Shown one piece after another: positions 1,466-7,672 of a stretch of 22,929 bases of DNA (the first letter of the stretch is position 1; every line of letters starts with the position of its first letter). Origin of the DNA: a virus. The notes under the pieces are model-generated. The model did no database searches. It saw only the letters and a list, made by a program, of their open reading frames with translations, and was not told the DNA's origin. The stretch is taken from positions 1-22,929 of IMG/VR virus record IMGVR_UViG_3300020215_000142. One strand, written 5' to 3'. A program made the position numbers and the translations under genes.

Positions 1466-2242
1466 TTAGGCCGTTTTGTTAACTGTATGAACCGCGTTCA
1501 CAAGCGCGCCGTAAGAAATGTTCTCAACCATCTCAGGCAGCCCTATGTTGTTCTTAGCTGGCTTTTTAAAAGAGGGGAGACACTGCGCGGTGTACTTCAT
1601 CTTGTCGCCAACTTTCTTTGCTTCAAGGAAGATGCTTGCATTGAAAAACCCTGCCGCATCGTTCCTAAAACCTCCAAGCGTGTTTGTGATCGTGCGTCCC
1701 GTCTTAGACGATTTTCCCGTCGCCTCATCGCGTTCCTCTTCTTCCATTTCATGTACCGGAACCACGACATTACAGGGGAGAGTCACGACTTCAGTGAGGA
1801 TAAAACGCGAGAGCCACCTGTTAAGCGCCCCGTACATTGCAAGCGTATCGGTTGCGCCGCTCTTGGTCGTTGACTTCTCGTACTTCTCAATGTACATCCA
1901 CCGCGCCTGCGATAAGTGAGACAAATTATCCAGAATGAATGTCTCAATCTTTCCTTCCTTCGCCCAAACTCGGCACTGATCAACATACTTCCCAAGCCTT
2001 TCAAACGTCACCTTGATATCCTCATCATCCTTCGGAGTAAAAAACTCCGCATCAACCATGTTCTCTTTCAAATGAGGATTAGAAGCTGCCGTAAGAATCC
2101 CGTTTGGTTCAATCATGGCGTAAGCCCACTTCGGAAATGTCATGGCAAAGTACGTCTTGCCAGCTCCGAACCCGCCGTTCGCTAGAATCTTAAACGTCAC
2201 CTTTTTTTCCTGAATCATCTTGCTCAAATCTTCTTTGTTCAT
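1466..2242 (-). CDS. Sak4-like RecA-fold ATPase (phage recombinase)
   Basis: A 258-residue P-loop ATPase. Walker A is GGFGAGKT (residues 23-30) and Walker B is TFILD (101-105) followed by NLSHL. The rest fits the AAA_24/Sak4 group, short RecA-core proteins that promote single-strand annealing together with an SSB in phage recombination. The neighbours support this: an SSB-like gene follows and a RecB/Cas4-type nuclease precedes, giving nuclease, annealing ATPase, SSB and resolvase in order. Its ATG at 2242 overlaps the nuclease stop as ATGA and has an AAAGGA site 6 bases upstream, so the two are translationally coupled. Confidence 0.75.
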   Translation of the reverse strand: MNKEDLSKMIQEKKVTFKILANGGFGAGKTYFAMTFPKWAYAMIEPNGILTAASNPHLKENMVDAEFFTPKDDEDIKVTFERLGKYVDQCRVWAKEGKIETFILDNLSHLSQARWMYIEKYEKSTTKSGATDTLAMYGALNRWLSRFILTEVVTLPCNVVVPVHEMEEEERDEATGKSSKTGRTITNTLGGFRNDAAGFFNASIFLEAKKVGDKMKYTAQCLPSFKKPAKNNIGLPEMVENISYGALVNAVHTVNKTA

Positions 2243-3066
2243 GCGATCCTTTCATTCTGCTTTATCGTGTACAGCAAATCCCTGATCTGTTCGTCTCCAC
2301 TTGCCATGCAAAGTTCATAATACTCACACCACGCACAGAGCTTATTAAGCGCCCTCGGCCAAACGTTTTCCCGCTTCGAGAACTCAATCTGCTTCAGCCA
2401 CTGCTCATCACTCTCGCGCCAGAACGCAATCTGTTGCGGACTCCGGTTAAACAACTGCCGCTCAAACTTGCACCAAAACCCAGCCGGTTCACCCTTGTAC
2501 ATCCGCGACCGATACCCAACCGCAATATTGTTGATGATCGCACCAGCGCAAGACCCGTACTTCTCCTTCACGTACACACAGTACCGCGTCAACTGTCCGC
2601 TCAACTCGAACCCGCGCCAGTACGTAGGGGAAGCAGTCTTACCAGTCGTCTTGTGATCCCACAGATAGATGTCGCCAGACTGCTTATTACGCGCAACCAG
2701 ATCGATATGGAGATCGTGATCCTCTCCACCGATACTCAACGTTCCTTCTTCCTCCGTGCTAAGCACTTCCCAATTGGTATCCTGACTTGCATAATGCCCG
2801 CGATAACGATTGAGACACTCGATGCCAGTTTCGGGTGTTTTCGCTTGATCAGTTTCATCAAGTCCTTGTGGATACTCCCGAAGAAACTCAGCTTTAACTT
2901 CTTCCCATCCTTTGCCGTCATAATGAGCCTTAAGTCCCGCATGGATTCCTTGGCCCCAGTTCTTGTCGTGCGCATCCGTTCCCTCCACTTGCTTAGTCAA
3001 ACCGTCGTGCTGCAACTTGTACTTGTAAGGGCAAGAGTTATACGCCTCCTTCTCGCTATACCTCAC
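2239..3066 (-). CDS. PD-(D/E)XK exonuclease with Fe-S cysteines (Cas4/RecB-like)
   Basis: Probably makes single-stranded ends for the downstream annealing ATPase. With the GTG start at 3066 the protein has 275 residues. Nuclease motifs are GxxxH-like QGIHAGL (39-45), D122 in IDLVAR, the D-x-K core WDHKT (136-140) and Q158 in SGQLTRY. Four cysteines, C12 near the start plus C244, C247 and C253 in CAWCEYYELC, match the iron-sulfur arrangement of Cas4 and AddB-type nucleases. I chose GTG 3066 because GGAGG lies 6 bases upstream and the family core begins right after it (RYSEKEAY). A longer frame from 3138 would add a Trp- and Arg-rich stretch that is the shadow of an overlapping small gene. Confidence 0.8.
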   Translation of the reverse strand: MRYSEKEAYNSCPYKYKLQHDGLTKQVEGTDAHDKNWGQGIHAGLKAHYDGKGWEEVKAEFLREYPQGLDETDQAKTPETGIECLNRYRGHYASQDTNWEVLSTEEEGTLSIGGEDHDLHIDLVARNKQSGDIYLWDHKTTGKTASPTYWRGFELSGQLTRYCVYVKEKYGSCAGAIINNIAVGYRSRMYKGEPAGFWCKFERQLFNRSPQQIAFWRESDEQWLKQIEFSKRENVWPRALNKLCAWCEYYELCMASGDEQIRDLLYTIKQNERIA

Positions 3067-3193
3067 GCCTTGCCTCCAACTCCACAAGTCTCGCCTCAAT
3101 CTGAAACTGCCGTTCCTCCAAACGCTCCAACACCTCAAAGATACTGCGCAGAATTTGAATCAACTGCTCTTGGTGGTTCATAATCTCACTCAT
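3056..3193 (-). CDS. Small coiled-coil protein (45 aa)
   Basis: This frame starts at ATG 3193, which overlaps the stop of the upstream gene as ATGA, and ends 11 bases inside the following nuclease gene. The protein is a continuous heptad-like helix (QEQLIQILRSIFEVLERLEERQ), rich in Leu, Ile, Glu and Arg, and probably oligomerises. The nuclease's ribosome binding site lies inside its 3' end, which again suggests coupling. No family recognised. Evidence is the coupling at both ends and the clean coiled-coil character. Confidence 0.6.
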   Translation of the reverse strand: MSEIMNHQEQLIQILRSIFEVLERLEERQFQIEARLVELEARREV

Positions 3194-4253: not shown

Positions 4254-4513
4254 TTATTCCCAAGCCTCATCTTCATACGTTCTGACGCCTCTTTTTTCTG
4301 TTTTGCCGTCAAGGAGCGTGGTTTTGAAGGTAAACGCACGGCTCTACGTGGTATTTCAAAGACCCAAGATCCATCATCTAACTTCTCAGCCTTAAAGCCC
4401 CTTTTAGTCATACGCCTATAAATAGCTGGGGAAGCTGTATAGAGATTTGCCGCATCCTCTTCCTGATTAAAGTTAATGATCGTTTCCTGCTCTAACCTAG
4501 ACACCTTGGGCAT
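4250..4513 (-). CDS. Conserved-type phage hypothetical protein (87 aa)
   Basis: An 87-residue basic protein from ATG 4513, with GGAG 8 bases upstream. The N-terminal part ETIINFNQEEDAANLYTASP resembles a widespread phage family of unknown role that begins with '(I)I.FN..E..A..YT'. A basic strand-turn segment and a Lys/Arg-rich tail (SLTAKQKKEASERMKMRLG) follow, suggesting nucleic-acid contact. The gene overlaps the end of the exported protein gene by 17 bases. I give no function. Confidence 0.6.
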   Translation of the reverse strand: MPKVSRLEQETIINFNQEEDAANLYTASPAIYRRMTKRGFKAEKLDDGSWVFEIPRRAVRLPSKPRSLTAKQKKEASERMKMRLGNK

Positions 4514-4925
4514 AGAAAAACTCCACGTTTTTGAGCCAATGTTGATTTAGGGAATGGTGAGATAAAGGGGCGTATCGATCCCTTAAGAATTCAAGGTAAG
4601 ACAGCGAGGATTTCGAGCTAAACCAGCGTTTATAGGTGTTTCTTACGGTATTAAGGCAAATCTGGCGGCAATAGGAGGGATTATTCCAGTCACAACCCTT
4701 ATAAAACACGCCGTAGGGCCGGGACGCCTTACGCCCGCCCTCGGCCTGGTAGATCGCATCAACTAGCTTGGAGAAATTAGGAGTAGCTTCAGCATAGACA
4801 GGGGGACTTGCTAAGAGTAGAATTGCCACCACCGGCGCGGTAGCAAAGTGGTAATGCACGGGTCTGCAAAACCTGTATACGGCGGTTCTCAGCACTTCCA
4901 AACCCATATTAGCCTTGCTCTCCAT
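4497..4925 (-). CDS. Exported lysozyme-like protein (putative peptidoglycan hydrolase)
   Basis: A 142-residue protein with a long N-region, a hydrophobic stretch at about 28-45 (APVVAILLLASPPVYA) and a plausible signal-peptidase site after VYA. The mature part begins FSKLVDAIYQAEGG. The Glu at 62 in AEGG followed by a Y-G-V strand resembles the start of lysozyme-fold transglycosylases, and the end (YLEFLRDRYAPLS, LNQHWLKNV) looks like a complete small domain. Four cysteines could form disulfides outside the cytoplasm. It is the first gene of the early operon, directly behind promoter P1, an unusual place for an endolysin. The hydrolase role is inference; an exported early or lysogenic factor is the alternative. 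Confidence 0.5.
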   Translation of the reverse strand: MESKANMGLEVLRTAVYRFCRPVHYHFATAPVVAILLLASPPVYAEATPNFSKLVDAIYQAEGGRKASRPYGVFYKGCDWNNPSYCRQICLNTVRNTYKRWFSSKSSLSYLEFLRDRYAPLSHHSLNQHWLKNVEFFYAQGV

Positions 4926-4958: not shown

Positions 4959-4987
4959 ACATTACCATTTAACTTTACACGTGTCAA
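4959..4987 (-). promoter_or_regulatory. Early promoter P1
   Basis: Minus strand: TTGACA (-35, 4982-4987), 17-base spacer, extended -10 TGGTAATGT (core 4959-4964, only 3 of 6 matches but with the TGn extension). It drives the operon 4925 down to 503. Its -35 box is inside an operator-like palindrome. Confidence 0.55.
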
Positions 4988-4988
4988 C
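4973..4988. promoter_or_regulatory. Operator-like palindrome copy 1
   Basis: Minus-strand GTTGACACGTGTAAAG matches the ideal palindrome CTTGACACGTGTCAAG at 14 of 16 positions and covers the P1 -35 box. Confidence 0.55.
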
Positions 4989-5017
4989 ATTATTTTTAAC
5001 TATTTTTATCATTAAAT

Positions 5018-5085
5018 TACAGTCTCAGTCTCAGTCTCAGCACAGTCCCTATAATATATATATATACGTGTTTTTTGAGACTGTA
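5018..5085. repeat. Inverted repeat with hexamer array and AT core
   Basis: TACAGTCTCA at 5018-5027 is the exact reverse complement of TGAGACTGTA at 5076-5085. Between them are three tandem AGTCTC units (5021-5038) and an alternating TA run (about 5053-5065). It lies between the helicase stop codon and promoter P1. It could end helicase transcription or serve as a protein-binding or easily melted site. Confidence 0.5.
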
Positions 5086-5090
5086 CGAAA

Positions 5091-6089
5091 CTAGATGCGA
5101 TTTTCATCACAATTTGAGGTGGCTTTTTTGAAGAAACCGAATTCGCGCTCGTCTTTCACGAAGCGCGAGATAATGCCGTCCCCAACCGCTAAAACCTGCT
5201 TAATGTGTTTATAGAACGACGACTTTGGGAGTCCCATAGCGGTATAGGCTTCTTTGGCCCTATACCAGCGCTCGGGATTCGCCACGAAGAACTTCACAAT
5301 GGTATCCGGCTTCGTGGGCCATTGAGCCAGCTCCTCAAAGTACAGCGGATCAGGCTCTACCATGTTCAGCATCACCCTATCCACGATCTTGCCGGACCGT
5401 TGCAAATTGCACTGAAGCGTCCTCGCCTTAGAGGACCTATCCATATCGAATAGAAACTGATGCGTAATCCAAGCCTGAAAGAACACGCTCCCAAACACAT
5501 CATCATCGTCAGGCGGCAGGATGCACCCATCCTTATCGCGTCTACTCTTCTTAAAGTGATGCACAAGTATCATGGCGCAGTTAAACTTCTCCTGAATGAG
5601 CCTAAGACACCCTGTAAAGTCCCTAACCGCCTCATCGTCACTGAGACTGCCCTTCATGGCAAAGTACACGGGATCAATAATCACCACATCTACCTGCTTC
5701 GCGCTCTCTTCAATGCGCTTAATAAGCTGCTCAGTCTCGCTTACATTGTTCAACTGAAGCGGGGGAGAGAAAAGTAGAAAGAAGTTCTCCCTATCCATAG
5801 GCAACGCTTTCGTCATGCGCCTAAACCGGTCCTGACTATCACTCAGGCTCCCTTCAAGCTGCACGTACAGCACCCTGCACTTGCGCCTCACCTCAAACCT
5901 GTCAAGGAACGGCTCCCCACTCGTAAGAGAGCAAATCAAATTAAATAGCAGTACCGACTTTCCTGTCTTCGCCTTACCCGCAAACAGTACAGAATCCTTC
6001 TCGTAAAGAATCTGCTCTATCAGCGGCTCTCTTGACTCAAACTGCTTATTAAACAACTCATCTGCGGTATAAAACCCGAAATCTGACAT
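5091..6089 (-). CDS. RepA-like replicative helicase / AAA_25 ATPase
   Basis: A 332-residue RecA-fold ATPase of the RepA/AAA_25 group, hexameric 5'-3' helicases used by plasmids and phages at replication origins. Walker A is GKAKTGKS (38-45), the acidic strand is YVQLEG (75-80), Walker B is DVVIIDP (134-140), and LVHHFKKS (175-182) is the typical sensor segment. The C-terminal 60 residues look like a winged helix (RAKEAYTAMGLPKSSFYKH). I start it at ATG 6089. A longer frame from a TTG at 6194 would translate a structured RNA into Pro/His-rich sequence without motifs. The binding site (AGGA, 12 bases upstream) is weak, so the leader structure may control translation. It has its own promoter at 6292-6320. 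Confidence 0.78.
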   Translation of the reverse strand: MSDFGFYTADELFNKQFESREPLIEQILYEKDSVLFAGKAKTGKSVLLFNLICSLTSGEPFLDRFEVRRKCRVLYVQLEGSLSDSQDRFRRMTKALPMDRENFFLLFSPPLQLNNVSETEQLIKRIEESAKQVDVVIIDPVYFAMKGSLSDDEAVRDFTGCLRLIQEKFNCAMILVHHFKKSRRDKDGCILPPDDDDVFGSVFFQAWITHQFLFDMDRSSKARTLQCNLQRSGKIVDRVMLNMVEPDPLYFEELAQWPTKPDTIVKFFVANPERWYRAKEAYTAMGLPKSSFYKHIKQVLAVGDGIISRFVKDEREFGFFKKATSNCDENRI

Positions 6090-6155
6090 TCTGGGAGCGT
6101 CCTGTCTAGTGTGCAATGATTCAATTTCTGTGAAGTGTGCATGCTCTGGAAAGGG

Positions 6156-6267
6156 GAGAGGTCCGCAACCTGGCTGGGTGCTCCTTGCGAGCAAGAAGGT
6201 GTCTTTGCAGACACTACGGACCTCTCGAAACTTCTAGTAGGTGATGATTTCATATCTTCCAGCCAGG
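6156..6267 (-). ncRNA. Pseudoknotted leader RNA of the helicase gene
   Basis: On the minus strand, in RNA order: segment A CCTGGCTGG (6267-6259), a 32-base gap, segment B GAGAGGTCCG (6226-6217), hairpin 1 GTGTCTGCAAAGACAC (6214-6199, GCAA loop), hairpin 2 CTTCTTGCTCGCAAGGAG (6198-6181, CTCG loop), segment A' CCAGCCAGG (6177-6169), TTG, and segment B' CGGACCTCTC (6165-6156). A pairs perfectly with A' (9 bp) and B with B' (10 bp), which gives an A-B-A'-B' pseudoknot. Hairpin 1's GNRA loop is GCAA only on the minus strand, the sense of the helicase mRNA. The unit ends 67 bases before the helicase ATG. Role unknown: control of helicase expression or an origin element. Confidence 0.65.
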
Positions 6268-6291
6268 AATTTTAATTTCATAGCGCCGCGA

Positions 6292-6320
6292 ATTCTATAC
6301 GCGGTTCGCCGCTCAGTCAA
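6292..6320 (-). promoter_or_regulatory. Helicase promoter with long leader
   Basis: Minus strand TTGACT (6315-6320), 17-base spacer, TAGAAT (6292-6297). The spacer contains the dyad GCGG-CGAA-CCGC, a possible operator unlike the one at P1 to P3. Predicted transcript start near 6285 gives a leader of about 195 bases that includes the pseudoknotted RNA. Confidence 0.6.
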
Positions 6321-6323
6321 CCA

Positions 6324-6548
6324 CTATTTCAACTTTTTTCTAACAAGCCTCATATGTTTGCCGCATCGCACAGCCTCAAAGCGCTTCGCCTCACTCATTG
6401 GTATCAACCACAGCTTCGGGCTAACTTGCGTTGCCTTGATCAAATTACGCTGCGTATGATATTTTCCACTCTTATTAATATGCTGATGCACAAGCTGCCT
6501 TGTTACACCAAGCATATTGCAGAAGTCTTTTACAGTAATCAATTTCAT
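6324..6548 (-). CDS. Small helix-turn-helix protein (excisionase or Cro-like)
   Basis: A 74-residue protein with a MerR/HTH_17-like fold at its N-terminus: MKLITVKDFCNMLGVTRQLV, then HQHINKSGKY, a wing, and LWLIPMSEAKRFEA, which matches the 'W.ip..ea..f' ending of excisionase-type DNA-binding domains. The tail is strongly basic (MRLVRKKLK). It lies directly downstream of the integrase on the same strand, the usual place for an excisionase, but it has its own promoter P2 carrying the shared operator. The predicted transcript begins at or next to the ATG, so the message is probably leaderless. It could also be the early regulator that binds those operators. Confidence 0.65.
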   Translation of the reverse strand: MKLITVKDFCNMLGVTRQLVHQHINKSGKYHTQRNLIKATQVSPKLWLIPMSEAKRFEAVRCGKHMRLVRKKLK

Positions 6549-7448: not shown

Positions 7449-7459
7449 CGGGGAGCGCA

Positions 7460-7488
7460 ATTTTATACACTTCGCCTCACTTTCGCAA
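7460..7488 (-). promoter_or_regulatory. Integrase promoter
   Basis: Minus strand TTGCGA (7483-7488), 17-base spacer, TAAAAT (7460-7465). The predicted start near 7453 leaves about 5 bases before the integrase ATG. Confidence 0.45.
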
Positions 7489-7672
7489 CTAAAATTTTAG
7501 ACATAAGTATAAACAATTAAACAACTTACAACCAAATTAATGCACATTTTGCCGTAATTGCACATTGCATTGGGCAAATCAAGCACCGCCAACTACATTT
7601 GTCACAAAACTAACATATCAACCTTAACTATGCCCAACACATTGTGCATAAAAATGTGCATAATGGCCATAA
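7461..7672. promoter_or_regulatory. Divergent int-repressor control region with TGTGCA repeats
   Basis: This AT-rich 212-base gap separates the divergent integrase and repressor genes. It contains four copies of a TGTGCA core: ATGCACA at 7540-7546, TTGCACA at 7558-7564, and TGTGCAT at 7643-7649 and 7655-7661. The last two are direct repeats 12 bases apart, and the first two are in the opposite orientation. A weak plus-strand promoter for the repressor could be TTAACT (7624-7629), 17 bases, CATAAA (7647-7652), which would place the repeats on and just after its -10 box. They are candidate autoregulatory operators. No gene is seen here. Confidence 0.45.

Follow-up and report, generated by a model that had tools for sequence, protein, structure and literature searches.

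A pseudoknotted leader RNA behind the promoters of recombination and replication-type transcripts in uncultivated phages

The CI immunity RNA of phage P4 is a stem-closed RNA that comes from the leader of the helicase/primase operon; its complement lies near the promoter, and P4 has a second target behind CI. The put RNAs of phage HK022 are made of two hairpins, with conserved sequence that is needed for binding to RNA polymerase. The C4 antisense RNA of phages P1 and P7 is excised from a longer leader; its specificity resides in loop a′ (PMC5320573). The gene 32 mRNAs of phages T4 and RB69, which encode the phage SSB, begin at the 5′ end with a pseudoknot that serves as translational operator; the ribosome binding site lies behind it in a less structured region, and the sequence of the pseudoknot RNA may vary while its structure stays (PMC535899). 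Finally, the STAXI pseudoknot occurs near genes for SSB, integrase and other DNA-handling proteins (PMC2864571). Here, we describe a phage leader pseudoknot of a type that is absent from Rfam. It resembles STAXI as a pseudoknot near DNA-handling genes, but STAXI is small, comes in two or three tandem copies and often has UUCG loops, whereas the present element is single, large and without a match in Rfam.

The stretch of DNA analysed (the window) is a complete IMG/VR virus record of 22,929 bases. It belongs to a tailed phage that carries an integrase, HTH proteins, a helicase, recombination genes, a terminase and capsid genes. On the minus strand, the genes for the integrase (7460-6588) and a small HTH protein (6548-6324) are followed by a promoter, the leader and the helicase gene. 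The promoter is of the sigma-70 type (TTGACT-17-TAGAAT, 6320-6292, minus strand, 10/12 matches), and we infer a start of the leader transcript near 6285. The first gene after the leader encodes a RepA/DnaB-like AAA_25 helicase (5091-6089, minus strand), with a weak ribosome binding site and an ATG at 6089, which is 66 nt past the end of the leader fold. Further downstream on the same strand lie genes for a PD-(D/E)XK exonuclease (2239-3138), a Sak4-like ssDNA annealing protein (1466-2242), an SSB-like protein (908-1441; phrog_378, E 2.7e-4) and a RusA-like resolvase (503-907).

Several further features were observed in the same region. An inverted repeat, CCGCG-TATAGAATT-CGCGG (6286-6304, minus strand), covers the leader promoter's -10 box and is a candidate operator, and operator-like repeats (TGTGCATAA twice, and ATGCACATTTT/AAAATGTGCAT) sit at 7455-7663, in the gap from which the integrase and Cro/CI-like genes diverge. 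Iteron-like repeats (CAGTCTCAGTCTCAGTCTCAG) with an adjoining AT tract (4977-5085) closely follow the helicase gene and form a candidate replication origin; comparable repeat-plus-AT regions are found behind the helicases of the relatives L064-L067. A small exported-looking protein with an AIYxAEGG motif is encoded at 4497-4925 (minus strand); alignment indicates that it is kept in several of these phages, and a Pfam search with it returned no significant match.

The leader itself has the arm order A-B-hairpin-hairpin-A′-B′ on the minus strand, and hence pseudoknot topology. The 5′ arm of the first helix, A (CCTGGCTGG, 6267-6259), is separated by a G-poor joint of 32 nt (L1, 6227-6258) from B, the 5′ arm of the second helix (GAGAGGTCCG, 6226-6217). 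Two abutting hairpins follow, GTGTCT-GCAA-AGACAC (6214-6199) and CTTCTTG-CTCG-CAAGGAG with one T-G pair (6198-6181), and then the 3′ arms A′ (CCAGCCAGG, 6177-6169) and B′ (CGGACCTCTC, 6165-6156). Immediately after B′ comes a pyrimidine-rich tail, CCCTTTCCA (6147-6155), with three U in nine nucleotides. The joints, in order, are L1, TA, 0, CAC and TTG. Helix A/A′ is a perfect 9 bp (duplex energy -17.6 kcal/mol) and B/B′ a perfect 10 bp (-18.5 kcal/mol). An earlier note on this DNA, made by reading the sequence, had given these coordinates, helices, joints and hairpins, and proved right base for base; it had also been correct in placing a suitable promoter in front and a helicase gene with a weak ribosome binding site behind.

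The pseudoknot in the window is beyond chance, as had been supposed for two helices of this length. Among 60,000 dinucleotide shuffles of the 112 nt, crossed helices of at least 8 bp arose 41 times and of at least 9 bp twice. Even without the pseudoknot, the nested fold of the minus strand beats shuffled sequences (z = -3.73; the plus strand reaches -2.40). The window has no Rfam match at gathering score, and a search of 6000-6420 at E <= 10 gave only noise and nothing credible. This agrees with the view that the RNA matches no known riboswitch and, together with the 32-nt joint, that it does not have the HDV fold. An HDV-like ribozyme was rejected for the family as a whole: the two main helices are crossed with hairpin(s) between them, as in HDV-like RNAs, but they are too long, the first joint is 21-37 nt, there is neither a P4 nor a common catalytic core, and no Rfam match was obtained.

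Related leaders were sought by way of the terminase and portal-like proteins, which led to a group of uncultivated phages that were then searched for the helicase. Two of these, G013 and G046, encode helicases of 23% and 28% identity, respectively, and between promoter and helicase both carry an RNA with the order and spacing of the window's leader in other letters. The contig L071 was fetched only through a lysozyme-like neighbour gene, so its two leader copies (a and b, 1.6 kb apart) were not chosen by helicase. A structural descriptor of the leader fold, run on all fetched DNA, additionally gave G008, where the leader lies downstream of an integrase gene; this is the weakest member, with a poor -10 box, a promoter spacing of 19 and a helix A in two parts. 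There are thus five further leaders in four other uncultivated phage contigs.

With the leaders as BLAST queries, no homologue turned up among 50,697 phage records, and Rfam at permissive thresholds gave nothing but noise for the G013 leader (E <= 10) and for L071, L156, L069 and L066 (E <= 1). Scanning genome contigs for the terminase found nothing, and for the helicase two loci, both in one Lachnospiraceae MAG; a promoter-pattern scan of viral contigs returned L181 alone, a near-identical copy of one L071 leader. The helicase relatives G004, G009, G011, G015 and G036 and the fragment L186 lack the leader. Two other candidates were not counted, as their scores fall in or near the chance range. 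One, in the cultured Salicola phage CGphi29 (L196, 14276-14374), precedes a gene with a Transposase_20 domain and has a promoter (TTGACA/TATAGT) and a T-run behind it; the other, in phage record G002 (L079, from 14946 onward), has no gene on that strand.

All six leaders share the anatomy A-L1-B-L2-A′-L3-B′ behind a promoter-like sequence, with pairing kept while the letters differ. In G013, A (CTTGGGAAGA) is followed by 31 nt, B (GTCCCTACGGCG), two hairpins, A′ (TCTTCCCAAG), TG and B′ (CGCCGTATGGGAC); in G046, A (GCAAACAATTTATTCG) is followed by 37 nt, B (ACCCCGACGGCA), 13 nt, A′ (CGGATAAGTTGTTTGC), AA and B′ (TGCCGAAGGGGT). Helix A/A′ has 9-10 bp in the window and G013, both with hairpins in L2. 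It has 16 bp in G046 and both L071 copies, and 8+8 bp around an internal loop in G008, all without L2 hairpins; the single L2 hairpins first seen in L071 and G046 were superseded by the 16-bp helix. The two hairpins and the GCAA loop singled out in the earlier note are therefore not general. B/B′ spans 10-12 bp, with a 2x2 internal loop in G046, L1 is G-poor and 21-37 nt long, and L3 measures 0-3 nt. Since MAFFT misaligns the leaders, pair types were tallied position by position, starting at the A/B junction, in place of a covariance model: two to four occur at A positions 1-8 and two to five at B positions 1-6, with one non-pair. The earlier note's reading as a leader RNA is supported in this respect: both pairings are kept in all five further members despite changed letters, and the topology recurs in independent leaders behind promoters.

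Position is conserved as well. The leader starts 5-24 nt behind the -10 box (5-9 nt to A in L071 and G046, 15-24 nt in the window, G013 and G008), and its orientation to the promoter and asymmetric spacing are identical in kind in all six cases. Behind the GC-rich B′, five of the six leaders turn U-rich: against three U in the nine nucleotides behind B′ in the window, the other five have 5, 5, 7, 6 and 5. A Shine-Dalgarno sequence and ATG lie close behind B′ in G013, G046 and both L071 leaders, while in G008 the next sizeable frame starts some 200 nt from the leader. A second structured stretch was noticed behind the G008 leader (L089, 3100-2965, minus strand), where CCTCGTCAGGGC pairs with GCCCTGATGAGG and is followed by GGCCGAAAGGCC and a T-run; it is terminator-like, its letters recall a hammerhead core, and it has no Rfam match at gathering score.

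How far such folds arise by chance was gauged with the descriptor, which was shaped on the first members and whose thresholds were read off afterwards. With a promoter (at least 9/12 matches) just upstream, eight matches scored at least 45, as against 0.9 per shuffled set (eight sets). With the refined descriptor and a promoter, five scored at least 50 against 0.125 per shuffled set, and with a U-rich tail in addition there were four against none; these promoter-linked counts take in one overlapping second placement of an L071 leader. Anatomy and promoter together thus exceed their frequency in shuffled DNA by a factor of 9-40. When no promoter was demanded, the enrichment of descriptor matches was a few-fold at most (18 with a score of at least 50, and 10.5 per shuffled set), so the case for a family rests on the combination and on position. 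Ranked by score, promoter and downstream gene, the top places go to the window, two L071 places, G013 and G046, the last of which was first spotted by eye. For a sample of six leaders from five phages only, the fold and position of the family are well supported.

The genes behind the leaders are of a kind, though not the same. In the window, G013 and G046, the helicase comes first, followed on the leader strand by an exonuclease and further recombination-type genes (the Sak4-like and SSB-like genes of G013 and G046 were assigned by resemblance, not by profile). In L071, copy a precedes genes for a YqaJ exonuclease and an SSB, and copy b those for an HNH endonuclease and an Erf annealase. The HNH/NUMOD4 endonuclease gene (2165-2668 of L071) lies directly behind copy b and was possibly inserted there. 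The HNH and YqaJ contexts, together with the five helicase relatives that lack a leader, indicate that the RNA goes with recombination/replication-type transcripts and not with the helicase as such. The tie to the helicase made in the earlier note was not supported as written, since copies also precede an HNH gene and a YqaJ operon and one follows an integrase gene. The leader-RNA reading is upheld and extended to a small family, and the link to the helicase and to replication control is weakened.

It is probably through its shape that the leader serves as a control element. The folded 5′ end of the transcript, the GC-rich second helix that leads into a U-run, and the ribosome binding site nearby suggest a gate on elongation or initiation, and because the U-run is present in five of six leaders, attenuation is our first choice. 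We thus tentatively favour, while granting it somewhat less than an even chance, the reading that the leader is a cis-acting expression gate of phage recombination/replication transcripts. A, which comes first in the RNA, would pair with A′ as the latter emerges, and B would then pair with B′, 0-3 nt behind A′, to close a long H-type pseudoknot. The GC-rich second helix would end at the U-rich stretch, in four of six leaders directly before the Shine-Dalgarno sequence of the next frame. Depending on the order and state of pairing, B/B′ with the U-run might halt or release RNA polymerase, or block the ribosome, and A/A′ could be the switchable, copy-specific part. A phage protein, an RNA in trans or the kinetics of elongation might act as the trigger. 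Some features of the leaders argue against attenuation: the U-run of the window is weak (3 of 9) and its B′ lies 66 nt from the ATG, the B/B′ loop (30-50 nt) is long for an intrinsic terminator, and as A/A′ and B/B′ do not overlap, the sequence holds no classical exclusion between antiterminator and terminator.

The main rival, and by analogy the closest experimentally known system, is repression of the T4 gene 32 kind, in which an SSB or replication protein of the phage would read the pseudoknot shape, spread over the single-stranded RNA behind it and repress translation. Both cases have a 5′-terminal pseudoknot, constant in structure and variable in sequence, before the ribosome binding site of a phage replication/recombination mRNA, with that site close by in four of the six leaders, and the leader of the window and L071 copy a each have an SSB or SSB-like gene further along their strand. 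However, the known gene 32 pseudoknot is about 28 nt long, as against 90-112 nt for these leaders. Gene 32 is the first gene in T4, whereas here a helicase, HNH or YqaJ exonuclease gene comes first; the SSB-like gene of the window lies about 4.7 kb downstream, and an SSB in G013, G046 and G008 was not confirmed by profile. The U-run behind a GC-rich helix is a feature of the present leaders, unlike gene 32. We consider such a translational operator rather unlikely.

Other readings start from the specificity of pairing. Good pairing of A is confined to the A′ of the same leader (-14.9 to -22.5 kcal/mol); with the A′ of other members, the energy is -8.6 kcal/mol or weaker. B and B′ are interchangeable between the L071 copies (-16 to -19 kcal/mol), and those of G013, G046 and G008 also pair with one another (about -10 to -16 kcal/mol). 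The L071 copies are alike in promoter (30/35), B (9/11) and the tail from B′ to the ATG (28/33), but unlike in A/A′. Either compensatory drift in a helix under little constraint may have led to this orthogonality, or copy-specific pairing may have been selected; with A/A′ orthogonal between copies and B/B′ partly interchangeable, there is room for specificity of the antisense type. It is conceivable, though unlikely, that the leaders represent a new family of phage regulatory RNAs, in which a near-constant part (promoter, B/B′, U-run and ribosome binding site) is joined to a hypervariable A/A′ that confers specificity for the own transcript, as an operon switch or immunity system made of RNA only and based on a large pseudoknot. 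Recognition, whether by the nascent leader or by a B-B′ RNA set free from it, would then be limited to the transcript of origin.

In the case of an antisense RNA of the P1 C4 or P4 CI kind, a small stable B-B′ RNA would be released, and its exposed A′ would pair in trans with the A of other nascent transcripts and switch them off, so that a variable A/A′ would give copy and immunity specificity. The arrangement is suggestive, with a target-like A at the transcript start and its complement inside a stem-closed domain of 49-71 nt, cognate-only A/A′ beside interchangeable L071 B/B′, and integrases in the window and G008. Like P4 CI, this would be a stem-closed RNA of a replication-operon leader, but no second target was found here: in the span that reaches from 200 nt ahead of A to 900 nt past it, none of the leaders has another good complement to A′. 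C4, too, is a phage leader RNA with segments complementary within its own transcript and a variable specificity segment (PMC5320573). It differs in having three stem-loops, of which loops a′ and b′ pair with the target, and in that its targets lie near the ribosome binding site. The C4 family (RF01695) was not matched in the window at gathering score, in 6000-6420 or the G013 leader at E <= 10, or in L071, L156, L069 and L066 at E <= 1. Moreover, pairing in cis would be expected to outcompete that in trans, and plain compensatory drift also predicts orthogonality, and we regard this form of control as distinctly unlikely.

A role in mRNA protection or processing, by which a helix would shield the 5′ end from 5′-end-dependent decay, or the stacked helices (19-27 bp in total) would serve as an RNase III substrate for maturation of the early transcript, is very unlikely. 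In L071 and G046, A does lie at, or close to, the predicted start of transcription (5-9 nt from the -10 box), and A′B′ is nearly continuous (L3 of 0-3 nt), but the window, G013 and G008 would have a free 5′ tail (15-24 nt from -10 box to A), and the U-run behind B′ is left unexplained. We also give little credence to an RNA antiterminator of the HK022 put kind, in which the folded nascent leader would stay on RNA polymerase and allow read-through of terminators in a long operon; the leaders are indeed promoter-proximal, at the start of multi-gene early-type operons and, in L071, in two copies at two promoters, but they form a pseudoknot and have no sequence common to all six. Least probable is chance complementarity or a DNA-level element such as a cruciform or single-strand origin: crossed helices this strong do arise in Mb-scale DNA (10.5 per shuffled set at a score of at least 50), but they were matched by only two of the 60,000 shuffles of the window sequence, the leader recurs at the same site in the helicase relatives G013 and G046, promoter orientation and asymmetric spacing are kept in all six, and the iteron-like candidate origins lie elsewhere, behind the helicase.

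If the family holds, it would be a leader RNA defined by topology and position, of a sort that sequence-based searches miss, and it would bring a large pseudoknotted leader to the small number of RNA controls that are known for phage recombination/replication operons. The combination of a constant gate with a variable helix then raises the question of whether these phages use the leader as a gate in cis or for specificity in trans.
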